Shown here: positions 1-12,601 of the stretch, in pieces
Layout: the number at the start of each line of letters is the position of its first letter
How positions within the stretch are numbered: the first letter of the stretch is position 1
DNA from: Clostridia bacterium
Lineage (GTDB): Bacteria; Bacillota_A; Clostridia; Christensenellales; Aristaeellaceae
Assembly: GCA_017525805.1 (NCBI GenBank)
Contig: JAFXSH010000129.1
Coordinates: 1 to 12,690, forward strand
Direction of reading: 5' to 3'
DNA length: 12,690 bases
Position numbers and translations under genes: made by a program
The notes under the pieces: generated by a model
The model's database searches: none
Seen by the model: only the letters and a program-made list of their open reading frames with translations
Told to the model about the DNA's origin: nothing

Positions 1-1766
1 ACGGTTACGAACATCTGCGCTTCGTTGTTGGAGCAAATGGCTTCGTTGGTTTTTTGCAGGATGCCTGCCGGGGACATGCCCATCATGGCCACGCTTTGCA
101 GGATGATCTTGCTTGCCATCATGAACAGCGCCGCCGGAACGCCCTTGCCGGATACGTCCGCAATGACCATGCCCAGGTGGTCGTCGTCGATGAGGAAGTA
201 GTCGTAGAAGTCGCCGCCCACCTCCTTGGCCGGGGCCATGCTGGCATAAATCTCAAACTCAGGCCGATCCGGGAAGGCCGGGAAAATGTGGGGCAGCATA
301 GACGCCTGGATGTTCGTCGCCAGCGACAGCTCCGTGCCGATTCGTTCCTTTTCCGCCGTGATCTGCACCACCTTGGACATGTATTCCACGGTTTTGTGAG
401 AAATCGCCGCGAAGGACTGGGCCAGCTCCTCAACCTCATCGCCGGTCTTGTAGGCGTCCTCCATCTTGAATTCCAGGTTTCCTTCATTGAGCTCCGAAAT
501 GCGCCTGGTCATGGTGTTCAAGGGCTTTACGATCCGCCCGCTGAGTATCAGCGCGCCTGCGAGGGTCAGCAGCATGACGATCAGCAGCAGCACGGTGCCC
601 ATGGTACGGGAATAGCCTGTCTTTTCCTGATAGACAGCCGTGGCTTCGGATTGGATTTGCTCCATGCTGTTTTGAAGCAAGGCGGCGGGCTGCTTTGTGA
701 TCTCCTGGTTATACGCCGATACCAGCGCCCAGCCCGTGGACGGGATAGGGGAGGCCGTCAGGTAGTACCTGCCGCCCGACAGCTCTCCTTCCGTTACGGC
801 GGCGCTGTATCCCGCAAGGGCCTGAGAAACAGCTTCCTTCAGCAGCGTCTCCCCGCTCTCGGCCACGATGCCGGACTTGCTTTCCTGATCCATGGGAAAA
901 GCCTCTGTCTGGGGCCCCGGCACGATCCATCCGTTCTGGTCAATCAGCAGGTAGTATTCTCCTTCCACGGCCAGGCTCTGAAGCGCTTCCTGCATGTTGT
1001 CCAGAAACAGATCGGTTCCCACCACCGCCTGCAGGCTGCCATCCGGGCCATAGACCGGCACGGCGCATTCAACGCAGTACGCGCCTGTGTCGATATCCTG
1101 CTCATTGTCGTAAAAGCTGAGCTTGCCTTCCGCCGCCGCGTTCCTGTACCAGCCGCGCTCACGGGGATCATAGCGGATGGTTCCGTTCCCTTCAAGCCAG
1201 CCGGAGGAGGTGTTTCCCACCGTCAAATGCATGCCTTCCGGCATGCCAATGTACAGCGAAGCGGCTTCGTAGGAAGAACAAAGAGAAACCATGATCTCCG
1301 ATAAATTGGCGACCAGGCCGAGCTTTTCCTTGACTGCCGGATCCTCCGGATCCACGCCCGGCGCGTATATCACCTTTGCCGCCCATGTGCCGTCATCCTC
1401 GGCGCGGGGCCCGTGGTAGGGCTTGGGCGCATATTCCTCCGGATGCGCGAACAGCTTGGCCGCATAATCCGCCAGAAACATCACCCGCCGCGCTTCATCC
1501 GCAAAAAGGGCGTCCACAATGGCCGCGTCCGTGCGGTTGGCGCGCTCCAGGTTCTGGTCAACCACCGCGTCCATCACCCGCCCGGTAATATCCCCGATGG
1601 ATTCCTGCTGCCGCTGGGCGGATTCCGCCGCCAGCTGCGTCAGCGTATTATTTTGATAAATGGATAACGCCATAAAAGCGGCTGTCAGCAACAGTATTGT
1701 GTACAGAATCAGGTTGAACACTTTACTCTGGATACCGCCAATTGTGAAGTTCTTGAATCTCCTCAT
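1..1766 (-). CDS. Membrane SpoIIE-family PP2C phosphatase (dCache-HAMP-PP2C), 3' end cut by window
   Basis: The visible 588 residues start at ATG 1766, with an AGGAGAG ribosome binding site 8 bases upstream. Residues 15-37 form a first TM helix. Residues 38-385 look like an extracellular dCache sensor, with the family motif YDPRERGWYRNA (200-211) and VVGTDLFLDNM later on. Residues 389-409 are a second TM helix and 410-462 a HAMP linker (IVKPLNTM). The start of a SpoIIE-type PP2C domain follows, with ELSLATNIQASMLP (479-492), GGDFYDY (517-523) and IADVSGKGVPAALFM (535-549). The metal-ligand Asp residues D519 and D537 are present. Known proteins of this architecture dephosphorylate Ser/Thr-phosphorylated STAS anti-sigma antagonists in response to an outside signal. 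The C-terminal part of the phosphatase lies beyond position 1. It is the last visible gene of the amino-acid transporter operon, 82 bp after the sensor remnant. The family call is firm; the ligand and the partner are unknown. Confidence 0.93.
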   Translation of the reverse strand, partial: MRRFKNFTIGGIQSKVFNLILYTILLLTAAFMALSIYQNNTLTQLAAESAQRQQESIGDITGRVMDAVVDQNLERANRTDAAIVDALFADEARRVMFLADYAAKLFAHPEEYAPKPYHGPRAEDDGTWAAKVIYAPGVDPEDPAVKEKLGLVANLSEIMVSLCSSYEAASLYIGMPEGMHLTVGNTSSGWLEGNGTIRYDPRERGWYRNAAAEGKLSFYDNEQDIDTGAYCVECAVPVYGPDGSLQAVVGTDLFLDNMQEALQSLAVEGEYYLLIDQNGWIVPGPQTEAFPMDQESKSGIVAESGETLLKEAVSQALAGYSAAVTEGELSGGRYYLTASPIPSTGWALVSAYNQEITKQPAALLQNSMEQIQSEATAVYQEKTGYSRTMGTVLLLIVMLLTLAGALILSGRIVKPLNTMTRRISELNEGNLEFKMEDAYKTGDEVEELAQSFAAISHKTVEYMSKVVQITAEKERIGTELSLATNIQASMLPHIFPAFPDRPEFEIYASMAPAKEVGGDFYDYFLIDDDHLGMVIADVSGKGVPAALFMMASKIILQSVAMMGMSPAGILQKTNEAICSNNEAQMFVT

Positions 1767-1848
1767 GATCTCTTCTCTCCTCGTCTTGCTCAAAGAATTA
1801 CGTATACTTTCAAATTTCGGTTCGTCACACGGTCAAGGCCGTCATAGG

Positions 1849-2226
1849 TCAGGACTGTTTTTCCAGAGGCATGACAAGCGGTATCAGGGCGATGAGCAGC
1901 GGCTTTTTGTTTTTGACCTTGGAGACAGACAGCACCAGCATGGACATCATGTGGGCCATGAAGCCCGCCGCCAGCATTTCCATGAAGGTGACGATATACA
2001 GCGATGCGCGAACCCACGCACCAGCCAGCCCGTCCATGAGTTGTCAGGCCAGGTGGGTGGAGATGTAAAGCAGGAGCAGCAGGAGGAAGATTTGGGAATA
2101 TCGCCGCACTTCCTTCCGCAGATGGACGGAGGACGAGATCTGCAAAAAGCACAGGTCGCAAATCCCGATGCCCGCAGCAATGAACAGCATATTGATGAGG
2201 TTCACGGTGGTGACGCTGAAAACCAT
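1849..2226 (-). pseudogene. Truncated multi-TM sensor-like membrane protein with in-frame TGA
   Basis: The frame opens at ATG 2226 behind GAAGGAAGG. It reads 60 codons to a TGA at 2044-2046, then continues in the same frame for 64 more codons to 1849. The reading on both sides of the stop is strongly hydrophobic: about four TM helices (around NLINMLFIAAGIGICDLC, QIFLLLLLLYIS, LYIVTFMEMLAAGFM and PLLIALIPLVM) with short basic loops. This continuity suggests one gene with a CGA-to-TGA change (HLA-R-QLMDG). It resembles the N-terminal membrane part of Clostridial histidine kinases or similar sensors (weak recognition), but no kinase, GGDEF or phosphatase domain follows; the SpoIIE gene starts 82 bp later. 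It is probably a remnant. Alternatives are two tiny membrane peptides or a sequencing error at the TGA. It lies 64 bp after the ABC ATPase gene in the same direction. Confidence 0.6.
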
Positions 2227-2290: not shown

Positions 2291-3385
2291 TCACGCCGTC
2301 CGAATGTGCAGCGTCGCCTGATTGGGCCGTTCCGCGTTTTCATCCCAGGCATAGGCCATATCCGCCACAGCGCTTTGCAGAACCCTCAAGGAAAGCTCGT
2401 CGCCCTTTTTCGTCAAGTCAAAGGCCGGGCCGCTGTACCGCACCGTCAGAACCGCGCTTTCCTCGGCTTCCGAATATTCGATCACGGTTTGAATATCCGG
2501 CTGCGCAAGGGTGGGAATCAGCATTTGCTGCACCAGTTCCTCAAAGGCTAAGCGGACGCGGTGGGCAGTTTTGTAGGGGATTTGATTCTTATTGCAATAC
2601 TGCTCGATTTCGCCCGCCATGCCCAAGAAATCGTAATCCTTGTTTTCGATGTTCAGTTCCAGCACCTTGAGCTTGCGGATGAAGCGCCGGGTGTTTTCTC
2701 TTTGGGGATGATCGAAAATCTGCTCGGGGCTTCCGTCCTCGTAAATGCCGCCCTCGTCCATGTAAAAGACCCGGTTGGAAATGGCCCGGGCGAAGTTCAT
2801 TTCATGGGTGACGATCATGAGGGTCTTGCCGGTTTTGGAAAGGTCTCGGATGACCGCCTGCACTTCGCCCACCATGGTGGGGTCCAGGGCGCTGGTGGGT
2901 TCGTCGAACAGAATGATGTCCGGGTCCATGGCCAGGGTGCGGGCAATGGCGATGCGCTGCTCCTGGCCGCCGGAAAGCTCGTCCGGGTAGTTCAGCGCCT
3001 TTTCCGCAAGGCCCACTGTGCGCAGCAGGCGCATCCCTTCGTCATAGGCTTCCTGCTTGCTTTTCCCCAGCAAATCCATGGGGGCCAGCATGATGTTTTC
3101 GATGACAGTCAGGTGTCCGAACAGGTTAAAGGATTGGAATACCATGCCCATCTTCTGCCGCACCCTGCCCAAATCGCACTTGGGATCGGTCACGTCGGTT
3201 CCGTCCACCCAGATATGGCCCTCTGTGGGCTTTTCCAGCAGGTTGATACAGCGCAGCAGGGTGCTTTTTCCCGTGCCGGACGGGCCGATGACGGAGATCA
3301 CGTCTCCATCGTTGATTTCCACAGACACGTCCTTCAGAGGCGTCACGTTGGGATAGACCTTTTTCAGATGCTCAATCTTAATCAT
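2291..3385 (-). CDS. Amino-acid ABC transporter ATPase fused to an RsbW/SpoIIAB-like GHKL domain
   Basis: The first ~240 residues are a HisP/GlnQ-type ATPase powering polar amino-acid uptake. Numbered from ATG 3385: Walker A GPSGTGKST (34-42), Q-loop FQSFNLF, signature LSGGQEQRIAIAR (from 137), Walker B ILFDEP (158-163) and the switch His in VTHEM (194). Residues ~242-364 are an extra domain: GEIEQYCNKNQIPYKT, then AFEELVQQML, then YSGPAFD and a helix LSLRVLQSAVADMAYAW. This order matches the HATPase_c_2 fold of RsbW/SpoIIAB anti-sigma kinases. However, the N-box Asn (EAxTN) is Gln, and the Asp of the DxG ATP-binding motif appears to be Tyr, so kinase activity is doubtful. GlnQ-type proteins normally end near residue 245. 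The ATG at 3391 is possible, but the GGGGGTGA ribosome binding site is spaced better for 3385. The start overlaps the permease stop by 8 bp, implying translational coupling. Confidence 0.93.
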   Translation of the reverse strand: MIKIEHLKKVYPNVTPLKDVSVEINDGDVISVIGPSGTGKSTLLRCINLLEKPTEGHIWVDGTDVTDPKCDLGRVRQKMGMVFQSFNLFGHLTVIENIMLAPMDLLGKSKQEAYDEGMRLLRTVGLAEKALNYPDELSGGQEQRIAIARTLAMDPDIILFDEPTSALDPTMVGEVQAVIRDLSKTGKTLMIVTHEMNFARAISNRVFYMDEGGIYEDGSPEQIFDHPQRENTRRFIRKLKVLELNIENKDYDFLGMAGEIEQYCNKNQIPYKTAHRVRLAFEELVQQMLIPTLAQPDIQTVIEYSEAEESAVLTVRYSGPAFDLTKKGDELSLRVLQSAVADMAYAWDENAERPNQATLHIRTA

Positions 3386-6300
3386 GAACATTCACCCCCT
3401 TTAATATAGATTCGGGCTTGCGCTTTTTAGGATTCATGCGAATCTGTATCTTGCTGACCAGGAAGCCCAGCAGCCCTTCCAGCACGAAGTAGATCACCGT
3501 CACCGCGATGAGGGGGAAGAACGCTTCATACGTGCGGCTGCGAACGATGTCGCCCATCTTGGTCAGGTCCTGCACGGCGATGTAGCCTACGATGGCCGTG
3601 GCCTTGATGAGGCCCACGATTTCGCCCTTATAGGCTGGCAGGATATGGGGAATGGCCTGGGGCAGGATGATGCGGAAGAAGGTGCGCCGGTTGGCGTAGC
3701 CCAGGGCGTAAGCCGCTTCGTACTGGCCCCGGTCGATGGTGCCAACGCCCATTTTCAGCAGCCCGAACACGGAAGCCCCGAAGGTGAGCGTAAACCCGAT
3801 CACCGCCACGAAAATGCCGCTGATGGCCACGGAACCAAAGATGATGTAATACAAAATCATGAGCAGCACCACCATGGGCATGCCCTGCACCAGCCACATG
3901 CTGAATCGGGTGACGCTATTGGCGACGATGTTCCCGTTCCGGCAGAGCATGAACACCAGAAAGCCCAAGGCTGTCCCAAACAGGATGGACAGGACGGTGA
4001 TGAGCAGGGTAGTCAGCACGCCGTTTCCGAACAGCTCCCAGCGGTTCTCCCGCAGGAAAGTTTTGTTGAAGCTGGAAACGATGCCGTCCCAGAAGGATTC
4101 CGCCTGGGAAGAAAAGATTGTGGTTTCCGCTGTCTGCGCAGTAGGCTGAGCTTCGGTCTTTAGCACAACCAGCACCATGCCGCCGGAGAAGTCTGGTTCA
4201 GAGAACAGCACGCTTTCCGCCCGTTCCGGCGTAACGCCGATGCCCGCCGCGGCAAAGTCACACTTCCCAGTCTGTATCGCAGGCAGGATCGCGTCGAAAT
4301 TCATATCTACGATTTCAAGGCCGTAGCCATTCGCTTCACAGAAAAGAGCGGCAAGCTCCATGTCATAGCCCACGACTTGACCGTCGCGGATGTACTCAAA
4401 CGGCGCGTAACCCGATTCTGTCGCCAGTCGCAGCGTTCCATTTTCAGCTTTCAGTGCGGTGATGTCCGGCATGGGCTTCGCGTCCTCGTCCTCGTCAAAC
4501 CATTTGGCCGCCAGCGCGTCCAGCGTCCCATCGGGCAACTGTTCGAGGAAAGCGTTAAACTGATCTTTCAGCGCTTTTCCCGCTTCATTTTTCGCGAATG
4601 CAAAGGCAAACACATAGTCGTCCAGATATTCATGCAGATAAGTTAAGCGTTCGTCTTCATGCATCAGAATCTGAGCCACTGGTTCGTCAACCGCGAAGGC
4701 TTCGACCTTTTTCCCTGTGAGCGCCGCCACCAGGTCGGCCTTCCCAATATAATAATCGATCTGAGCAGACGGGAGATTCTCTTGAACCATAGCATCGAAG
4801 TTGGTTCCGCTTTGCACACCGATGCGTTTTCCGTCTAACTGGGACACGCTGGTATATACGCCTGCTTCGCTGACGGTCGTTTCTCCAAGATCCGATGACC
4901 GCACCACCAGAACGATGCCACCATAGCCGGTAGGATCGGAAAACAGCACCTGTTCCTCCCTCTCCGGCGTTACGTTCATATCCGTGGTGAAGTCATATTT
5001 GCCGGATTGGATCGCCGGAATACGACCATCGAAAGCTACGTCGCCCAGCTCCAGGGCGTAGCCCCTGTCCCGGCAGAAACGAACTACAAGATCAATATCG
5101 TAGCCCACGTTTTTGCCGTCCTTGATGTAAGAAAAGGGCATGTCCGTAGAGGTGGTCACGACCCTGATCGTGCCGTTTTCACCGGTCAGATCGGACATAT
5201 CCACGACCTTTCTTTCTTCATCAATGCCGTACCAGATGTTTTCCAGATCTTCCATGGTGCCGTTTTCCCGGCTTATGGCGAGAAAATCATTGAGTTCAGC
5301 GCACAGGGCGGCGCTCTTAGGATCATTCTTCCGGAATGCAAAGGCATAATTATTTTGGGTAATTCGGTCATGGATATAGTCAATTTCGAGGTTTTCCGCA
5401 TGAACAGCGAACGCTCCCAGTTCGTCCCCCAGGTAAGCATCGATCTTCCCCGAGAGCAGCGCGGCGATGCAGTCTGGGTAGCTGTTGAACAGCAGGTATT
5501 CGCTGTCCGGGAAATATTCTTTGGCGGCGTCCTCCATCAGCGGGCCCACCAGCACGCCCAGGCGTTTTCCGTTGTAGTCCTGCCAGCGGACGGTTCCCTC
5601 GGCCTGCTCCGTGCCTGAATCAGTATCTTTCCGCACCACCATCACTGTGCCGCCGGAATAATAGGGCACGGAGAAATTGACGCTCTCCCGGCGCTCATCG
5701 GTGATGGAGATCCCGGCAGCGGCAAAATCCGTCTTGCCGGTCTGGACAGCGGGCAAGATTCCGTCGAAGTTCATGACCTGCACCTTGAGCCCATAGCCGT
5801 TGGCTTCACAGAATTGAGCAATCAGATCGATCTCCGCCCCGACGATTTCAGTGCCCCGGTAATAGGTCATGGGCACATAATCGCCCTCCGTAGCCAAGGT
5901 CAGCGTACCCTTGGTCGCGGGGAACGAAGCGTAGTCCGGCAGGGTCTTTCCTTCCTCCGGACCATCTGCCCACTTTTCGATCACCCGTTCCAGCGCGCCG
6001 CTTTCTTTCATTGGAATAAGCCAGGCGTTTAACTCTTCCAACAGTGCGTCACCCTTTGCCGTCTTGGGCAGCACAATGCCGAACGAAAAGGTATCCAGGT
6101 ATTCATCCACCACGGTGAGAAGCGGGTTCACGGCGCAGAATTGCTTCGCCGCAGGTTCGTCTACGGCAAACCCGTCGATTTTGCCAGCCTCCAGAGCGGC
6201 AATCAGATCAGCGGAGGAATTGATGTAAACAAGTTTCGCGTCGGGCAGGGCGTTCGATACAATGGCGTCGAACGTGGTGCCGGTCGCAACGCCGATGCGC

Positions 6301-7145
6301 CTGCCGTTCAGGGCGTCCAGGGCGGAAGCTTTTTGCTTTGCGGCATCCGGGGCGGGGGCCGCCTCCCCCCGCACCATCAGGCCGATTTTCACCTCGAACA
6401 GAAGATCCGAATAGGGCATTTCCTCCGCCCGTTCATCCGTATATTCCAGGTTGGCCATGATGCAGTCGATATCTCCCGCGATGGCCGCGGAAAAGATCGC
6501 GCCGTAATCGTACACCTTGAATTCCACATCCGCCCCCAGCCAGGCGGCGAAACGATAGGCCAATTCAATGTCGTAGCCGTTCAGCTCTTTTCCCGCATAG
6601 TAGCTGTAGGGCGGCACGATGCCGGAAGTGCCCACAATAAGATGAACCGAGGGGTTTTCCGCCCGGGGAATGTCCGGCATGGTTTCATCGGCCCGAACGA
6701 CCCAGCGGTCGAACATATCGTCCAGGGTGCCGTCCGCCCGCAGCTCCGCGATAAACCGGTTGATTTTGCCGGTCAGATCGGGGATTTTGGAAACCGGCGA
6801 AATGCCCACGGCAATCTTCATCGTTTCGTTCAGGGTTTCCTCCAGCAGATGAACGCCCTTCTGCCCGTTCTCGATGGACATCTCCATCTGCCGCCGGTCA
6901 TAGGCGAAGGCGTCGATCTTGCCCTGAGCCACGGCTGTATACCCCATGAATTTATCGTTGAATTGGCTGACTGTCGCCAAGGGCAGCTCTTTTTTCAGAA
7001 TCAGTTCGGCAACGTTGCCCTGGCTTACGCCAATGGTGATCCCGGTCGCATTCAACTGCTCCAGGCTGGTGAGGGCGCTTTCCGCGCAGGCAGCGCCTGA
7101 CCACAGCAGCAGGAACAGCAGAACGCACAGAACTCCTTTTTTCAT
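3378..7145 (-). CDS. ABC amino-acid transporter: multi-substrate-binding-domain/permease fusion, 1255 aa
   Basis: One polypeptide carries a signal peptide (MKKGVLCVLLFLLLWSGAACA), an array of SBP_bac_3 modules, and a HisM/GlnP-type permease. Numbered from ATG 7145: 25-162 is the second half of a module; 165-412, 413-655 and 657-902 are three complete modules; 903-997 is only the first half of a module; ~1040-1235 is the permease, with an EAA loop (YEAAYALGYANRRTFFRIILP, 1142 on) for docking the ATPase. Each first half keeps the T-x-E-R type Arg that holds amino-acid carboxylates (R239, R485, R729, R975). Each second half keeps the matching Asp (D83, D329, D574, D820). L. lactis GlnPQ is a known fusion with two such domains; this one has four equivalents. 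A GTG at 7154 is also open, but AGAGGGTG sits 6 bases before ATG 7145. The gene is first in its operon after a possible small ORF. Substrate is polar amino acids by family; the exact ones are unknown. Confidence 0.95.
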   Translation of the reverse strand: MKKGVLCVLLFLLLWSGAACAESALTSLEQLNATGITIGVSQGNVAELILKKELPLATVSQFNDKFMGYTAVAQGKIDAFAYDRRQMEMSIENGQKGVHLLEETLNETMKIAVGISPVSKIPDLTGKINRFIAELRADGTLDDMFDRWVVRADETMPDIPRAENPSVHLIVGTSGIVPPYSYYAGKELNGYDIELAYRFAAWLGADVEFKVYDYGAIFSAAIAGDIDCIMANLEYTDERAEEMPYSDLLFEVKIGLMVRGEAAPAPDAAKQKASALDALNGRRIGVATGTTFDAIVSNALPDAKLVYINSSADLIAALEAGKIDGFAVDEPAAKQFCAVNPLLTVVDEYLDTFSFGIVLPKTAKGDALLEELNAWLIPMKESGALERVIEKWADGPEEGKTLPDYASFPATKGTLTLATEGDYVPMTYYRGTEIVGAEIDLIAQFCEANGYGLKVQVMNFDGILPAVQTGKTDFAAAGISITDERRESVNFSVPYYSGGTVMVVRKDTDSGTEQAEGTVRWQDYNGKRLGVLVGPLMEDAAKEYFPDSEYLLFNSYPDCIAALLSGKIDAYLGDELGAFAVHAENLEIDYIHDRITQNNYAFAFRKNDPKSAALCAELNDFLAISRENGTMEDLENIWYGIDEERKVVDMSDLTGENGTIRVVTTSTDMPFSYIKDGKNVGYDIDLVVRFCRDRGYALELGDVAFDGRIPAIQSGKYDFTTDMNVTPEREEQVLFSDPTGYGGIVLVVRSSDLGETTVSEAGVYTSVSQLDGKRIGVQSGTNFDAMVQENLPSAQIDYYIGKADLVAALTGKKVEAFAVDEPVAQILMHEDERLTYLHEYLDDYVFAFAFAKNEAGKALKDQFNAFLEQLPDGTLDALAAKWFDEDEDAKPMPDITALKAENGTLRLATESGYAPFEYIRDGQVVGYDMELAALFCEANGYGLEIVDMNFDAILPAIQTGKCDFAAAGIGVTPERAESVLFSEPDFSGGMVLVVLKTEAQPTAQTAETTIFSSQAESFWDGIVSSFNKTFLRENRWELFGNGVLTTLLITVLSILFGTALGFLVFMLCRNGNIVANSVTRFSMWLVQGMPMVVLLMILYYIIFGSVAISGIFVAVIGFTLTFGASVFGLLKMGVGTIDRGQYEAAYALGYANRRTFFRIILPQAIPHILPAYKGEIVGLIKATAIVGYIAVQDLTKMGDIVRSRTYEAFFPLIAVTVIYFVLEGLLGFLVSKIQIRMNPKKRKPESILKGVNVHD
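4155..7073 (-). repeat. Tandem SBP_bac_3 modules encoded in phase-shifted order
   Basis: Four equivalents of a ~245-residue Venus-flytrap module are encoded head to tail. The order is second half (6660-7073), full A (5910-6653), full B (5181-5909), full C (4440-5177) and first half (4155-4439). Shared blocks include FCEANGYGL and MNFD-ILPA-QTGK (B and the terminal half) and GKRIGV-SGTNFDA / AFAVDEP (A and C). The repeats have diverged at DNA level and are mainly visible in the protein. Confidence 0.88.
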
Positions 7146-7174
7146 GGAAGACACCCTCTCTGTTTTGTGATTGT

Positions 7175-7285
7175 TTATTCGACATGGTTTCTGAACGCTG
7201 TTTTCGACAAACCATCCTGGTTTTCCTGCCAGCGGGGATCAGGCGGTTTATTCCAGAAACTGATCTCGAAGCGCTTTTTCTTCAT
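7175..7285 (-). CDS. Small ORF of 36 codons ahead of the ABC operon
   Basis: ATG 7285 follows GAGGTGG by 7 bases, a well-placed ribosome binding site. The ORF reads MKKKRFEISFWNKPPDPRWQ and then 16 more residues, ending FRNHVE. It is basic at the N-terminus, has two Trp and two Pro-rich turns, and shows no TM segment or signal peptide. It ends 29 bases before the transporter ATG. I do not recognise it. It could be a real small protein, a translated leader affecting the transporter message, or chance. The good ribosome binding site and position argue for translation; the short length means no family can be assigned. Confidence 0.4.
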   Translation of the reverse strand: MKKKRFEISFWNKPPDPRWQENQDGLSKTAFRNHVE

Positions 7286-7327
7286 AGAAAAGCCACCTCG
7301 GTCATCGTATGCGTGTTCATGCCATGA

Positions 7328-7378
7328 AAGCCGGGGAAATCGCCCGCGAAAGGGACAGGCGGATGATTCCCCCGGCTT
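7328..7378 (-). terminator. Strong imperfect hairpin between the two operons; possible terminator
   Basis: The arms 7328-7339 and 7367-7378 are inverted copies (AAGCCGGGGAAA against TTCCCCCGGCTT) that pair over 12 bp with one G-U in transcript form. Inside, CGCC 7341-7344 can pair with GGCG 7358-7361. The minus-strand transcript has only a short T run (CTTTC) after the stem, so a classical Rho-independent terminator is doubtful. It lies just after the VOC pseudogene, where a terminator would be expected. It could instead be a 5' leader structure of the ABC operon. Confidence 0.4.
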
Positions 7379-7402
7379 CGCAATGGCCTGCTTGGGGCTG
7401 CC

Positions 7403-7778
7403 TTATTTCCTGATATGGTGGATGAGATTGATAGAAAAGCCGGAGGGCGAGATCATCAGGGCGGACTTGGAGGTGGGGGGTTCAACGATGCGCTCGCCCT
7501 TAGTAGTTCCTGAATCCCTTGGAAAGCAACAGTTGATAGGCTGTGTCGAAATCGTCCACGTTCATGCGGATGGCGGCTACATCCCGTTCAAGCGGTACGT
7601 CCGGCTGGGAAACGTCCACATAGAAGCCATTCAAATCCTTCATGCGGATTCCTTCCACTTTCAGTTCGCTGATGCCTTCCTGATCGTGGCGTTTTTCAAA
7701 GCCTAATTCTTCAAACAGCTGAACGATGGGCGCGGCGTCCTTGGTGATGATCTGCGGGTTAAAGGTGGTGATCTTCAT
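7403..7778 (-). pseudogene. VOC (glyoxalase/bleomycin-resistance fold) protein, frameshifted near its C-terminus
   Basis: ATG 7778 follows GGAGGG by 7 bases. The first frame reads MKITTFNPQIITKDAAPIVQ and on to MNVDDFDTAYQLLLSKGFRNY, stopping with TAA at 7500-7502 after 92 residues. Removing one base next to that stop continues into KGERIVEPPTSKSALMISPS, GFSINLIHHIRK and a stop at 7403-7405. That is the expected last strand and helix of a VOC protein and gives a corrected length of 124 residues, normal for the family. VOC proteins are small metal- or ligand-binding enzymes or resistance proteins; the reaction here cannot be told. It lies 71 bp after the C26-HAD gene, with a possible promoter in the gap. 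The lesion is either real or a one-base sequence error; the family call is good. Confidence 0.78.
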
Positions 7779-7820
7779 AATATTTCCCTCCAGAAAAATG
7801 ATGTTTGTTTTGTTTATTTC

Positions 7821-7849
7821 TTTAAAACGTGAAGAAATCCTTTTGTGAA
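7821..7849 (-). promoter_or_regulatory. Possible sigma-A-type promoter for the VOC gene
   Basis: On the minus strand TTCACA (7849-7844) and TTTAAA (7826-7821) are separated by 17 bases, giving 5/6 and 4/6 matches to TTGACA and TATAAT. It lies in an AT-rich 71-bp gap, about 43 bases before the VOC ATG. This is a weak motif match only. Confidence 0.28.
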
Positions 7850-9788
7850 TCACTGAACCGCGGCGCTTGCGTCCTTTTCCACGCCGTCGCCGTAGATGGT
7901 GGCGAAATCGTCCCGCATGGAGATGGTGCCGATGCCCTGCGCGCTGTAGCCCGCGATCTTGGCCTGGGCACTTTCATAATCGCCCCATTCCCGCGCTTCG
8001 TCGTCAGCCAGGACGATGTAGGAAAGGGCGGGATAGGGATTGTTTGTCACCACGTATGCACACATGGCTACGTCCCCGGAGCTGTTGCCGAAGGCCAGCA
8101 CCGGCTGCTGGCCGATCTCCCGCACGATGGCGTCCACCTTGGACATTTTGGCGTTCTCGCCGTAATAGTTTCCGTCGAACACCACCTTGTCCGTGCTTTT
8201 GAAGGTGTAATCCCCGTCGGCGGTATCGCCCTGGCCCGTGGCGGTGTAGCCGTATTCCGTGCCGATGACGTAGGCGGGGGCAATGTCCAGCGTATCCTTC
8301 ACGATGGCGCGGACGATGTTGCGCTCGGTGGCGGTGACGATGTAGACGGTAAAGTCATTGTCCCGCAGGTAGTCCACCAACTCCACCATGGGAAGGTAAA
8401 ACGCTTCACCCCGGGTCATGCCCGTGAAGCCCTCAGCCGGGGAATCCATGAAGCCCTTCACGTAGTCGCCCAATTCGGCGGGGGTCATGCCCGCATAGGC
8501 AAGGGCGGCGGCGGCGGCCTGCCGGGTGCTGATGCCCGAGGGCTTTTCCTGCCATTTGGTATCCACGATCTCCTGCGCCACGGCAAGAACCTCGTCCGTA
8601 GGCGTGTAATCGGGATTGTTCAGGACATAGTCCACAAATACCATGTATTCAAAGCACCGGGGATAGGTTTCGCACATGAGGGTGCCGTCCAGGTCGAACA
8701 CGGCAACGCGGTCCGCAACGGGAATGTAGCTTTCACTGGTTTCATCGGTGATGGCGGCGATATAGTCCATGATGGCGATTTTGGCTGCCGCGTCCTTGCT
8801 CCAGGAAGGCAAAGTCAGCCAGGATTTTTCGACGATATATCGAAACACGGACAATGCCGTTTCATAGTCCATATAGTCACCCTTGTTCGCCGCGCCGTCC
8901 AAGTTCTTCACAACGGCAGCTTCGGGGTGGAACTGGAGGCCCATGGCAAAGGTCTTATCGGTTCTTTCAATGGCTTCGATCATGGGAATGCCGTTGGTTT
9001 CCGTATAACCGGTCACGGTAAGCCGGGTGTTGTCCACATTTTTGATCGCCTGATGATGCCAGGAGGGGCAGCCGGTAAGCGTATCCGTGCCCACGATGTC
9101 AGAAAGCCAGGAGCCTTTCGCCACCTGCACGGTATGGGGCGCGTAATCCCGGTAGCTTTCGGGGGTGGCCTTCTGGTTGCGGTGGGTGTAGTCATACGCG
9201 ACGCCCTGATTTTCAAACCAGGTGGGAATGTCCTGAATGACTTCCCCGCCGGAAATGACGCCGAGCATCTGCGCGCCCCGGCGGAAGCCCATGAGGGGAA
9301 TATCACAGTCTAAGCAGTAGGGCCATGGTCAAATAATCGGATACGTCCCGCTCGGCGTTGTAGTCGATTTCCGCCTCGATGCCGTGCCATTCTTCGGGGG
9401 CATAGTACAGGGTAGGGCTGATGTCCTCGCCGCCGGTAAACAGAACGATGCTCACGTTTCCCACGGCTTCCGCCGCGTTGGAGCCGTGCCAGGTATTGCA
9501 TTTCACATACTTGGCGGCGGTTTCGTCCAGCATGTTGATTTCCGTCTTTCCTTCGGTCAGGCGGCCTTCCGCGTCGTAGCTTAAATCAGCCGAGAACACC
9601 TGATTCAGCATCACCCATTCGCCGCCCGCCGCTTCCACGGCGCGGCACACGTTGGTAAAGAACTCCGAATCCGTATCGGCCCGCCAGGCGATGCCCACCA
9701 CGGTTTTTTGAGAGGCCTCGGCCAGCGAAACGCCGCAGACGCTTGCCAACAGCACGAATTCCAGCAGCAGCGCGACAATCTTTTTCAT
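7850..9788 (-). pseudogene. Secreted peptidase C26-HAD phosphatase fusion, frameshifted and lacking catalytic Cys
   Basis: ATG 9788 follows AGGAGG by 9 bases and encodes a signal peptide (MKKIVALLLEFVLLASVCG to ...SLA). The first frame covers the N-terminal part of a gamma-glutamyl hydrolase-like C26 domain (IVLFTGGEDISPTLYY, ERDVSDYLTMA) and stops at 9303-9305. Dropping one C from the run at 9320-9322 restores YCLDCDIPLMGFRRGAQMLG, GGEVIQDIP and the His/Glu motif GLQFHPEA. The expected GFCRG nucleophile is GFRRG (CGC at 9281-9283), so the Cys is missing. A HAD domain follows, with motif I VFDLDGTL, motif II IVTAT, a motif III Lys in ENAKMSKVD and motif IV FGNSSGDVAM, all intact. Corrected length is about 645 residues. 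Family C26 hydrolyses gamma-glutamyl bonds; HAD enzymes of this type are phosphatases. The downstream frame could be translated only from its own start near 9292, without a signal peptide. Domain calls are firm; activity is probably lost. Confidence 0.85.
8781..8809 (-). repeat. Internal C26-HAD linker segment that recurs in the agp-like leader
   Basis: This stretch, encoding PSWSKDAAAK, matches 11081-11109 (PSWSKAAEAK), with two mismatches over 29 bases. The second copy encodes the region around the end of the signal peptide in the agp-like gene. Confidence 0.7.
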
Positions 9789-9804
9789 TTTCCTGATCCT
9801 CCTG
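9751..9804 (-). repeat. Duplicated ribosome-binding-site/signal-peptide leader, copy 1
   Basis: These 54 bases cover the AGGAGG site, ATG 9788 and the first ~12 codons of the C26-HAD gene. They match 11117-11170 in front of the agp-like gene at about 50 of 54 positions, including 19 identical bases from the ATG back through the ribosome binding site. Confidence 0.85.
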
Positions 9805-9840
9805 TCCATAGTCTTTTCTTCCTAAATACCTATCGTTTTT

Positions 9841-11154
9841 TTACGCCGCGTCGTCCATCGGTTTTTCGGCGGTGTATCGTTCTACCAGCGCGTTATAGGC
9901 GGAAATGGTATCGTCCAGCAGCTTGAACAGGTCGGCTTCGGCGATCCTTCCCTCCGCGTCCATGCCCGCAAAATGCAGCGGGTAAATCACGGGCGGGTTC
10001 TCCAGGGTCAGCTGCTCCATGGAGCGGAGCTGCGCCGTGCTCTGATAAATCAGGCTGATTTTATAATACGCTTCGTTTTCATCATTTACCCAGCGCTCGA
10101 ACACCAGCTTCACGCCGATGGGCGTATGCTGCTCCACGGTTTCCGGCAGCAGGTAATCCCCGTAATTCAACGCGGCCAGCACGCTGGCGACGTTAGCGTC
10201 ATGCCCGCAGAGGAAAGAGAATTTCCGGCCCTCCGCGCTCAGTTCGGCGCGGATTTCTTCCAGCAGCGGGTGCGCCACGTTGACAGAAACAAGGGGCGAG
10301 CAAAATAGCATGTCGCTGTACGTATCCACGATGGAATGGATCAGCCGCCAGTCCTCGTCCGTCAGGTCATGGCCAAAAGCGGCCTTCTGTTTGTCCGGTT
10401 CCTCATAGTATTGCAGGATCATGGCGTCCGCCACGCTGGTGGCGTTTTTGATGGGGCCGGTCATTTTCGGCTCTTTGCCCGTTCCCAGGGTGAGGACGGT
10501 TTCGCCCGCTTTAAGATCGCCGTATTTTCCCGCTTGATAGGCTTCGCTCTGTTCAATGTCAGCCGTGTCCATCAGCAGGGAAATGGCGTCGTTCAGGCTG
10601 GTAAGAATCCCGTCCAGCCCGGCTTCGCCGCCCTTTTCGGCGATTTGGGCGATGGCGTCCTGCATGTATTCCTCCGTAACGAAGTTCAGGGACGGTTCAA
10701 AAACGGGGTCCATGGTATCATAGGTTACGTGGGTTTCGATGTGCGCCGCCGCCACAGGCAAAAGGCCTGCGGAGAAGTACCGCGCGGTCGCGATGGTGCG
10801 CTGCTTGGCGTTGGCGTAGAAGCGGACGACTCCTTCCTCCGGCTGATAATTCTCCGGGAAAAGGCCCTCCTGTTCCAGCCACAGCCGGAAATACTGGCCC
10901 ATCAGGGTTTCCAGCACCGCGCCGCGCAGGGAAAGCTCGCTGGGATTGGACGTCCACTGGAACCATTCGTGGGGCGTAATGTCTCCCAGCAGCGAACCGC
11001 TGCCCGACAGGGGCGAACGGATGTTGTGGCGGCTCAGGATCACCACGCGATCCAAGGTATCATCCGATTGTTCAGCACGCTTGGCTTCCGCGGCCTTGCT
11101 CCAGGAAGGAAACAGCAGAACGAATCCCAGCAGCAGCGCGAAAATCCTTTTCAT
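9841..11154 (-). CDS. agp: Secreted histidine-acid phosphatase, Agp (glucose-1-phosphatase)-like
   Basis: A histidine phosphatase of clade 2, which removes phosphate from small phosphorylated compounds through a phospho-His intermediate. Numbered from ATG 11154 (437 aa): signal peptide 1-~24 (MKRIFALLLGFVLLFPSWSK...), catalytic RHNIRSP (42-48), Agp-type ANAKQRTIATARYF, and the proton-donor motif GHDANVASVLAAL (H318 D319). The C-terminal stretches TPIGVKLVFERW and SLIYQSTAQLRS resemble E. coli Agp more than phytase AppA. It should act outside the membrane and supply sugar and/or phosphate. The ATG is chosen by AGGAGG 9 bases upstream; a longer frame to 11196 has no signal peptide. Its leader is a near copy of that of the next gene. 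It lies 38 bp after the DUF3574-like gene, in the operon of the two-component system. Glucose-1-phosphate is the family guess; other phosphate esters are possible. Confidence 0.9.
   Translation of the reverse strand: MKRIFALLLGFVLLFPSWSKAAEAKRAEQSDDTLDRVVILSRHNIRSPLSGSGSLLGDITPHEWFQWTSNPSELSLRGAVLETLMGQYFRLWLEQEGLFPENYQPEEGVVRFYANAKQRTIATARYFSAGLLPVAAAHIETHVTYDTMDPVFEPSLNFVTEEYMQDAIAQIAEKGGEAGLDGILTSLNDAISLLMDTADIEQSEAYQAGKYGDLKAGETVLTLGTGKEPKMTGPIKNATSVADAMILQYYEEPDKQKAAFGHDLTDEDWRLIHSIVDTYSDMLFCSPLVSVNVAHPLLEEIRAELSAEGRKFSFLCGHDANVASVLAALNYGDYLLPETVEQHTPIGVKLVFERWVNDENEAYYKISLIYQSTAQLRSMEQLTLENPPVIYPLHFAGMDAEGRIAEADLFKLLDDTISAYNALVERYTAEKPMDDAA
11081..11109 (-). repeat. Copy of a C26-HAD linker segment inside the agp-like leader
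   Basis: Near-identical to 8781-8809. It lies almost directly after the duplicated signal-peptide segment at 11117-11170, so this N-terminus is made of two pieces that are ~1 kb apart in the C26-HAD gene. Confidence 0.7.
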
Positions 11155-11170
11155 TTTCCTGATCCTCCTG
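11117..11170 (-). repeat. Duplicated ribosome-binding-site/signal-peptide leader, copy 2
   Basis: Counterpart of 9751-9804, with about four differences in 54 bases. It holds the AGGAGG site, ATG 11154 and the codons for MKRIFALLLGFVL. Confidence 0.85.
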
Positions 11171-11192
11171 TTTTTTGCTGGACCGTTCCTGT

Positions 11193-11639
11193 TCATTTTC
11201 CGCTGTAATAGTCCATGGTGATCTCGCTTTCCTCGATCAGCACCGTGTTTTGGTTCAGGGCCTTGATGATCTCGTCCGCCGCCTGATACACCGTGGCCTT
11301 GTCCGCGCCGTCGAAGTAACAGACCAGCGTATACTCATGGGTGATGGCGCCCGTTTCGTCCGTCCACGCGCCGGTGGCCTCCTGGAGGGTGTAGCCCTCA
11401 AAGTATTTAAGGCACACGGTATCCACGATGTTCCGGGCTTCCTCCTGGGTCATTTCCATCTTATAGGTGTCCTTATCGTTGGTGCCCACGTACAGGACGT
11501 ATTGGACGCTTTTGCCCGTGTCCGCTTTGGGCGCGTTTGCCGCGTTGATATGCGTCAGCAGCAGCCCGGCGCATACCGCCGAGCAGCACAGGCTGACGAT
11601 GGAAATGATGACCGCGATGATTGTTCCGTTTTTCTTCAT
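11193..11639 (-). CDS. DUF3574-like protein with N-terminal signal/anchor
   Basis: 148 residues, starting at ATG 11639 with AGGAGG about 8 bases upstream. An N-terminal hydrophobic segment (TIIAVIISIVSLCCSAVCAG, residues 6-25) is a signal peptide or TM anchor. The rest has the look of DUF3574: YVLYVGTNDKDTYKMEMTQE, an FEGYTLQEATGAWTDETG turn (the 'G-T-x-x-A-x-G-x-W' pattern), YTLVCYFDGADKA, then AADEIIKALNQ. Members are small extracytoplasmic proteins of unknown function, often with a ferredoxin-like alpha/beta pattern. The frame stays open upstream to 12179, but the strong ribosome binding site and the hydrophobic start place the N-terminus here. It sits between the response regulator and the Agp-like phosphatase, so a role near the cell surface is likely (inference). 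Not an enzyme I can name. Confidence 0.8.
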   Translation of the reverse strand: MKKNGTIIAVIISIVSLCCSAVCAGLLLTHINAANAPKADTGKSVQYVLYVGTNDKDTYKMEMTQEEARNIVDTVCLKYFEGYTLQEATGAWTDETGAITHEYTLVCYFDGADKATVYQAADEIIKALNQNTVLIEESEITMDYYSGK

Positions 11640-11652
11640 GGTGATTTCCTCC

Positions 11653-11801
11653 TTATTGATCCAAATACGCCAGCATACGATCCTGCACGTTCTTTTCAAG
11701 ATTCCGATATACAGCATATTTCTGGCAATCTCGTATTGTTTTGGTGTCAGGCGTTCAAGCCGGGAAACCTGAATAGCTCGTAGTAAGTTTGTACGATTCA
11801 T
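11653..11801 (-). pseudogene. Small unknown ORF (~48 codons if repaired), probably frameshifted
   Basis: ATG 11801 overlaps the TGA of the response regulator (ATGA), the usual sign of translational coupling. It reads MNRTNLLRAIQVSRLERLTP and KQYEIARN. A frame change near 11716-11721 then gives AVYRNLEKNVQDRMLAYLDQ and a TAA at 11653-11655, which abuts the GGAGG of the next gene. Both ends thus have operon-like junctions and the repaired peptide is a plausible amphipathic helical protein, but no single frame covers it. In its starting frame it runs straight into the DUF3574-like gene. I recognise no family. It could instead be an N-terminal extension of that gene, which I think less likely. 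Confidence 0.38.
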
Positions 11802-12601
11802 TCCCTCATCCGCATCAGCTTGGCCAGCGTGGATTCTCCAAAAGAATATTGGCTCATGTATTCCCCATGGAAGGACTGCTTTCCCTCCGGGCTGCCCGAC
11901 AAATAATGAAAATAATCGCAGTCCAGCAGGGAAGGATTGACTCCCAGCATTCCCCGGCTTCGCACCAGCGCCTCGCCGAAGCCGCAATCGGTCAGCGTGG
12001 TTTGCAGATCGGCAATCAGCATACGGAGATGGCTCGCGTGGGCAGTATCTCCCGGCGCTTCCGGCCAGAAAAAGCTGATCAGTTGGCCCATGCTGCACAG
12101 CGCACCGTTTCGGTCGATCAGGTAGGCAAAGAGTTCTTTTGTTTTTCTGCGCTGGAAAACGACGGGCTTGTCGCCGCACCAGACTTCAAACTGTCCAAAG
12201 CACTGCGCTTTGAGCCGTTTGGGAAACGCTCTGGCTGATGTGGAAACGGGATAGCGCAGGTGCCGCAGCGCTTCGTCAAGCTGTTCTTCCGAGATAGGCT
12301 TGAGCAGAAAGCCGCTGGCGTACAGCTCCAAAGCGGAGAGGGCATACTCCGCGTGGCCGGTGATAAAGACGATGTTGGTCTGGGGCCGGAAAGTGTTCAG
12401 CCACTGGGCGACCTCCAAGCCATTCAGGCCCGGCATTTCCACATCCAAAAAGATCACGTCTGGCGGAAACTGCGCCACCAGCTCCAGCGCCTCGTCCCCG
12501 GAAGCGGCGATCCGATGGGTTCCGTTGGAATCCAGCCGAAGTAGCCCGTCCCGCACGGATTGAAGGACATTTGGGTTATCGTCAACCGTCAGCGTAATCA
12601 C
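11798..12601 (-). CDS. Response regulator: REC, winged-helix (OmpR/SARP-like) and short BTAD-like region
   Basis: A two-component DNA-binding regulator of 267 aa. REC domain 1-~115: acidic pair D7/D8, phospho-acceptor D53 (FLDVEMPGLNG), switch T81 and K101-P102. Residues ~130-220 form a winged helix (LKAQCFGQFEVWCGDKPVVF, RRKTKELFAYLIDRNG, WPEAPGDTAHASHLRMLIADL). Residues ~228-267 (DYFHYLSGSPEGKQSFHGEYMSQY cut short near LMRMRE) look like the start of a BTAD region, which is often longer in family members. The start is GTG 12601, with AGGAGGG about 7 bases upstream; no ATG fits as well. It overlaps the upstream histidine-kinase frame by 20 bp, so the two form a cognate pair. By position it probably controls the phosphatase genes downstream. 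Confidence 0.92.
   Translation of the reverse strand: MITLTVDDNPNVLQSVRDGLLRLDSNGTHRIAASGDEALELVAQFPPDVIFLDVEMPGLNGLEVAQWLNTFRPQTNIVFITGHAEYALSALELYASGFLLKPISEEQLDEALRHLRYPVSTSARAFPKRLKAQCFGQFEVWCGDKPVVFQRRKTKELFAYLIDRNGALCSMGQLISFFWPEAPGDTAHASHLRMLIADLQTTLTDCGFGEALVRSRGMLGVNPSLLDCDYFHYLSGSPEGKQSFHGEYMSQYSFGESTLAKLMRMRE

Follow-up and report, generated by a model that had tools for sequence, protein, structure and literature searches.

The fused importer ATPase and its surroundings

The 12,690-nt window, by which we mean the whole stretch of DNA analysed (contig JAFXSH010000129.1 of a Clostridia bacterium, GCA_017525805.1), carries on its minus strand a gene in which a GlnQ-type ATP-binding cassette (ABC) ATPase is followed by a degenerate domain of the RsbW/SpoIIAB type. 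Partner switching, the regulatory mode to which such domains belong, is known mainly for freeing sigma factors. On balance, and with modest confidence, we favor the interpretation that the importer served by this ATPase is an output of a partner-switching circuit, its dead C-terminal domain probably docking an unphosphorylated STAS protein. The genes of the window on this strand run in transcription order from 12601 down, and the part of the series that concerns the fusion is as follows.

7154-3378, minus strand: importer protein of 1258 residues, with five SBP_bac_3 (family-3 solute-binding) stretches and one permease domain
2291..3391, minus strand: fused ATPase open reading frame (ORF), 366 residues; likely start 3385 (364 residues)
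2669..3391, minus strand: GlnQ-type ABC ATPase domain, residues 1-241, with Walker A, LSGGQ, Walker B, and H-loop present
2291..2668, minus strand: degenerate RsbW/SpoIIAB-type C-terminal domain, residues 242-366 including the stop; 125 residues
2044..2226, minus strand: remnant, first piece of a broken membrane-sensor SpoIIE phosphatase gene (its N-terminal part); ends in a stop
1849..2037, minus strand: remnant of the same broken membrane-sensor SpoIIE gene, second piece
1..1793, minus strand: dCache_1-HAMP-SpoIIE phosphatase, truncated at the window end; start codon either ATG 1766 or TTG 1793

The first-pass annotation, made from the sequence alone, had described a complete GlnQ-type ATPase followed by an extra domain, and this description holds: residues 1-241 form a complete ABC ATPase (PF00005, E 4.9e-36), and the start at 3385 is the likelier one because almost all aligned full-length relatives begin at the second Met. 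The best NCBIfam model for the fused ATPase is GlnQ, at 281 bits against a cut-off of 379. The importer (permease) ORF, 3378..7154, overlaps the ATPase ORF, and with SBP_bac_3 and BPD_transp_1 partners beside a complete ABC ATPase, the system falls into the polar amino-acid importer class (GlnQ/ArtP). That annotation had also placed a SpoIIE-type phosphatase in the same operon. The gene is real and lies on the same strand; its membership of the operon is only plausible, as a broken gene and about 500 bp lie between it and the fusion and the window ends inside it. Of the 192 positions of the SpoIIE domain, only 1-62 (the N-terminal third) are visible.

An anti-sigma fold that has lost its ATP site

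By sequence alone the C-terminal domain is only faintly recognizable: PF13581 (HATPase_c_2) matches residues 242-366 with 14.6 bits, under the curated cut-off of 27.4 (E 0.034), and at E<=1 it matches 8 of 27 domain members, the best with E 0.0015. A search of the PDB with the single domain sequence returned only two matches, both designed repeat proteins (E about 5e-4), and one with the domain profile returned a single catenin-like match (E 0.98). Because fold searches with the full-length protein were filled by ABC ATPases and were uninformative on the C terminus, the domain was modeled alone. The AlphaFold model of the isolated domain is a confident fold of the GHKL anti-sigma type; the solved structures closest to it are those of the anti-sigma proteins UsfX, RsbW, and SpoIIAB and of SiaB, and it aligns with the anti-sigma proteins across its length. 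The predicted structure thus confirms the RsbW/SpoIIAB anti-sigma fold that had been proposed from sequence patterns, and structure prediction, named at that stage as the means by which another fold might come to light, returned none.

Conservation was counted over 64 rows, namely the window and 63 of 70 fusion loci described below. Four features of the domain are pertinent.

2525..2527, minus strand: Gln289, at the position of the Mg-binding Asn in active kinases
2429..2437, minus strand: Tyr319-x-Gly321, replacing Asp-x-Gly
2537..2542, minus strand: N-box Glu284-Glu285, invariant in 64/64 rows
2618..2638, minus strand: helix-1 patch D252-M258 (DYDFLGM), with D254 and F255 invariant in 64/64 rows

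As had been noticed earlier, the N-box Asn and the DxG Asp are both replaced, here by Gln289 and Tyr319. Of the 64 rows, 35 have a gap in the N-box Asn column, 20 have Gln, 2 have Asn, and 7 have another residue, and the DxG Asp position is Tyr in 59; aligned jointly with intact kinases, the fused domains lack their ATP lid and GGLG stretch. In the available parts of a study of SpoIIAB (PMC10345196), Glu46 is given as the base and Asn50 is placed at the Mg, and the residues near the SpoIIAA site include Glu16, Arg20, Ser45, and Thr49. On the residues named there, the aligned pairs of window domain and SpoIIAB are Glu285/Glu46 (catalytic), Gln289/Asn50, and Glu284/Ser45, and the DYDFLGM patch coincides with Glu16-Arg20 to within a few residues. 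Since the N-box Asn and DxG Asp are replaced, the lid is missing, and the Glu pair and the DF pair of helix 1 are invariant, the ATP site has been lost and positions near the partner site have been kept. On these motifs we reject an active kinase.

A different role for such a domain would be to bind a small molecule, either an amino acid or a nucleotide, and to impose trans-inhibition in the manner of NIL/ACT-type domains. Its C-terminal position on an importer ATPase is that of the regulatory domain of MetN, which senses methionine itself, and MetNI-type importers are alike in bearing such a domain on an amino-acid importer ATPase; the type of domain differs. No Pfam NIL or ACT match was found at E<=1 in the window protein or in the 27 domain pieces, a result that is not an exclusion by itself. 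The model was moreover assigned to a different fold, and we judge a NIL/ACT-type domain unlikely. With an anti-sigma match over the length of the model and the nucleotide-site residues lost, small-molecule binding in general appears very improbable.

Distribution of the fused family

The domain is matched at E<=0.01 in 293 of 315 candidate proteins (120 of the 293 were listed, and 84 of these entered alignment A2); this family size, together with the fold, rules out a chance resemblance. The fusion is present in 30 of 200 relatives of the nearest genome, and a scan of named genomes gave 70 loci, each with an ORF matching both the ABC ATPase and the domain. A permease domain lies beside or within the fusion in 63 of the 70: in the same chain in three (L140, L155, L183), in the gene before in 59, and in the gene after in one. 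Of the remaining seven, six start close to or at the end of a contig, and no permease is seen in L187. Judged by record titles, 64 of the 70 loci belong to Clostridia-type groups, many from ruminant gut; the others are from Treponema (L190, L201), Chloroflexi/Anaerolineaceae (L150, L159), Synergistaceae (L204), and Coriobacteriaceae (L188). Binning errors aside, this spread suggests transfer between phyla. Two of these loci (L150:2569-9291, with a Chloroflexi title, and L204:2533-9291, with a Synergistaceae title) encode importers of 2240 and 2252 residues with nine tandem solute-binding protein (SBP) matches before the permease. One contig of genome G001 equals window positions 3637-10035 at 100% identity (6.4 kb) and stops before the fusion.

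Partner-switch genes near the fused ATPases

Gene neighborhoods were compared in 24 fusion genomes. These comprised 23 of the 30 fusion-bearing relatives, seven being left out (several with short contigs or partial matches), and G001, which was taken as a fusion genome on its 100% contig match, although the fusion is absent from its assembly. Within 6 kb, a STAS or SpoIIE gene accompanies 8 of 30 fused ATPases versus 0 of 96 other ATPases retrieved by the same query (Fisher 4.7e-6), STAS genes accounting separately for 6 of 30. Co-occurrence with STAS or PP2C genes in relatives, which the first-pass annotation had put forward as a check, is therefore present. At 10 kb the counts are 8 of 30 and 2 of 96, and for one of the latter two the STAS gene concerned belongs to a fused locus. 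Of the 70 loci, 12 have at least one switch gene (STAS, SpoIIE, or kinase) at a distance of up to 6 kb: STAS in 11, SpoIIE in 4, and kinase in 2. The 11 loci with STAS compare with 0.87 expected from STAS density. In all but one of the 12 loci the switch genes share the strand of the fusion; in L185 they lie on the opposite one. Their order varies. In L163, a dCache-SpoIIE gene, an intact RsbW-type kinase, a STAS gene, a permease gene with six SBP stretches, and the fused ATPase follow one another on one strand, whereas in L173 the fused ATPase is followed by dCache-SpoIIE and STAS. The STAS gene lies 3' of the fused ATPase by 118 bp in L140 and 109 bp in L153, and ahead of the permease gene in L166, L181, and L182. 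All 11 STAS sequences from the loci contain SSAGLR with its Ser pair, and kinases with the N-box Asn and DxG intact are found in L163, L185, L250, and others.

The genome-wide complement of STAS genes points in the same direction: at least two are present in 22 of the 24 fusion genomes (21 of 23 without G001) versus 8 of 24 fusion-free genomes chosen by handle number (p 2.9e-5), and within the genus in 8 of 9 versus 6 of 14 (p 0.036). These p-values are optimistic because the genomes are related and often incomplete. Further observations weigh against a switch-controlled importer. No STAS or RsbW-type kinase gene lies inside the window. Only 3 of 30 fused ATPases have a SpoIIE gene within 6 kb. 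In as many as 58 of the 70 loci the 6-kb range is free of STAS, SpoIIE, and kinase genes, though many of the contigs are short, and L138, with the most similar domain (90%), has no switch gene in 9.4 kb downstream. Two of the 24 fusion genomes have only one STAS gene, and extra STAS genes also occur in the 8 fusion-free genomes counted above.

The 58 loci with no switch gene in reach would also suit a purely structural or dimerizing role, in which the domain would regulate the ATPase much as C-terminal domains do in MetN and MalK, having lost STAS binding, and the switch neighbors would be inherited history. Anti-sigma kinases of this fold are dimers, and with its one permease type, the importer is probably a homodimer. 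The varied order of the STAS and SpoIIE neighbors and their absence from all 96 other ATPases are, however, hard to fit to one old linkage, and we regard this role as unlikely.

Several STAS domains are themselves fused to other domains. In L153:870-2105, the STAS domain is joined to an APH-type phosphotransferase domain (PF01636, E 1.1e-19), and it is this gene that follows the fused ATPase by 109 bp; the same combination is seen by similarity in L252:6316-7509 and L254:8206-9411 and by eye in L151:4659-5831 and L182:2450-3598. This may be a STAS-linked kinase of another fold. The product of L252:5051-6319 (422 residues) combines a match to LCM-type methyltransferases (E 7.2e-5) with a STAS domain at its C terminus; its gene adjoins the STAS-APH and dCache-SpoIIE genes.

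The phosphatases of the window have relatives in comparable settings. Over window 1-1782, the SpoIIE gene is 83% identical to a gene of G005. Downstream of that gene come an intact kinase gene and, at the contig end, a gene with three SBP stretches; a STAS gene lies upstream of it. That the window SpoIIE is a one-off neighbor is accordingly rejected, the G005 copy adjoining kinase, STAS, and another SBP gene; strict linkage is not favored, in that the G005 locus shows no fused ATPase before the contig end and L138 has no switch gene. Among other close relatives of the window SpoIIE, the next gene is a kinase in L231, L234, and L238 and a STAS gene in L233, and no kinase, STAS, or gene with a fused HATPase_c_2-like (HAT) domain is seen in the DNA examined of L235, L236, and L237. 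G004 (L255) has an intact version of the broken membrane-sensor SpoIIE gene, adjoining a MATE-HAT gene; G026 (L065) has a start fragment of such a gene after the fused ATPase. As the broken gene is a membrane-sensor SpoIIE, distinct from dCache-SpoIIE, two phosphatase genes have adjoined this ATPase. In L026:7122-7562 (G001:C31), an RsbW-type kinase gene is broken by a TAA stop; it sits after a STAS gene and a SpoIIE gene 68% identical to that of the window. Compared by eye with the residues given in the accessible parts of two papers (PMC10104139, PMC9540692), the dCache domain of the window resembles PctA at R126, W128, Y129, D146, and D173, with Phe at Y144. We claim no ligand, as such a comparison cannot separate an amino acid from autoinducer-2 (AI-2).

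Parallel fusions

Similar domains are attached to other effectors. MATE proteins with a similar C-terminal domain are common: searching with that region, 133 of 388 candidates match at E<=0.001. Separately, in the 24 genomes, 25 MATE-HAT candidates with a frame length of 565-670 residues were examined from among the matches listed, G107:C104 (not a MATE protein) being dropped and a few weak or partial candidates not taken; 24 of the 25 were confirmed as MATE, the remaining one being G011:C1. A STAS or SpoIIE gene lies within 6 kb of 12 of the 25, and in G001:C37 STAS, MATE-HAT, SpoIIE, and intact kinase genes stand together. The MATE-fused domains keep the N-box Asn and DxG Asp in L192 and L087 and have lost both in L025, L100, and L081. 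A third kind of effector is represented by L258:1570-3561, an acyl-CoA synthetase-like AMP-binding enzyme whose C-terminal HATPase_c_2-like domain is matched below the cut-off (E 1.3e-4). Its gene adjoins an orthologue of the window SpoIIE: in G021 (L258), a SpoIIE gene 86% identical over window 1-1077 has the AMP-binding-HAT enzyme as its next gene. For this enzyme region, 321 of 777 candidates match at E<=0.001, and many of those listed have a precomputed PF13581 annotation. In a tree of 73 domains, each of three groups needs a single change: 18 ABC-fused domains (97/84), which fall on one side of a branch, 24 kinases (97/90), which fall on another, and 30 MATE-fused domains (91/63). With 141 columns and a midpoint root, the tree does not fix origin or direction.

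The first-pass annotation had read the fusion in the reverse sense, as a transporter reporting its activity into a partner-switching pathway. Under that reading the importer is the sensor, its conformation exposing or hiding the dead domain, which would sequester STAS protein and thereby alter what is presented to the kinase and to a downstream target. RsbW-type domains are able to titrate STAS proteins, and the same fold, degeneracy, and co-occurrence are compatible with this; but the MATE- and AMP-ligase-fused domains, in the same arrangement, would each need to be sensors as well, and the phosphatase already bears a dCache or membrane sensor. With MATE and acyl-CoA synthetase-like fusions, several beside an intact kinase, a reader on effectors fits better than a sensor. 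The proposal is thus not supported, and we hold it to be improbable.

A proposed output arm of partner switching

The reading of the importer as an output can be set out as follows. A sensor phosphatase, in the window the dCache-SpoIIE protein that probably senses an extracellular small molecule, would dephosphorylate a small STAS protein, and a separate, active RsbW-type kinase would oppose it, so that the two together set STAS phosphorylation. The fused C-terminal domain would then be a dead RsbW-type dock that has kept the Glu pair and the helix-1 patch and takes up the unphosphorylated STAS protein; binding or release may alter the pair of nucleotide-binding domains, and amino-acid uptake would change, in whichever sense, without transcription. 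The window species would use STAS and kinase genes located outside the window. A dock is the simplest reading because the kinase site of the domain is gone and complete modules have a separate gene for an intact kinase. More broadly, and tentatively, at a little short of an even chance, ruminant-gut Clostridia may use partner switching as a general posttranslational bus, in which SpoIIE phosphatases and kinases set STAS proteins that are read by dead or eroding RsbW-type domains on ABC importers, MATE transporters, and acyl-CoA synthetase-like enzymes; transport and metabolism would then be switched directly, with no sigma factors involved.

Several known systems resemble parts of this scheme. 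RsbW, SpoIIAB, and UsfX, with their STAS antagonists and SpoIIE/RsbU phosphatases, are alike in fold, in the N-box Glu, and in the STAS/SpoIIE neighbors seen in some relatives; the window domain differs in having lost the ATP-site residues and in being fused to an ABC ATPase. As far as the accessible accounts describe them, SiaABCD of Pseudomonas aeruginosa is a related switch with an enzyme output, in which SiaC itself activates the cyclase SiaD, whereas in the fusion the effector carries a dead SiaB/RsbW-type domain; and in MlaFB a STAS protein (MlaB) likewise acts on an ABC ATPase (MlaF), but binds it directly with no anti-sigma-like dock. For Thr52 of MlaB, the authors state, in the part of their account available, that phosphorylation lacks experimental evidence. 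The domain architectures reported here are already visible in the Pfam annotation of database proteins. Among the papers listed when the open-licence literature, which leaves most subscription papers outside, was searched for such a system, none describes a transporter that bears a domain of the anti-sigma type and is controlled by a partner switch; in the accessible text of a STAS review (PMC8256260), the 11 passages with “transporter” all concern SulP/SLC26 or are references, and “ABC” and “MlaB” are absent.

Should the dead domain of the fusion prove to be a STAS dock, the switch would act directly and fast on a membrane transporter without transcription, it would be movable between effectors by gene fusion, and how STAS proteins act on transporters (SulP, Mla) would become testable. 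L163 brings kinase, phosphatase, STAS protein, and target together as adjacent genes in one relative. Under this scheme, a function can be proposed as well for the hundreds of fused proteins for whose extra domain we found no described role.

Other genes of the window

Upstream of the importer, the minus-strand series opens with three further features.

12601-11798, minus strand: response regulator, receiver domain at residues 4-112
11196-9841, minus strand: histidine-acid-phosphatase-like protein
9809-7850, minus strand: C26 peptidase/HAD pair with a frame break

The C-terminal half of the response regulator (11798-12601) matches no Pfam family at E<=0.01. The C26 peptidase, gamma-glutamyl hydrolase-like, is split over two ORFs that cover profile parts 50-95 and 110-219, the second of which also bears the HAD domain; the frame break is near 9292-9303. 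HAD and histidine-acid-phosphatase-like proteins such as those at window 7850-11196 recur near importer or switch genes in L026, L141, L153, L162, L173, and L175.
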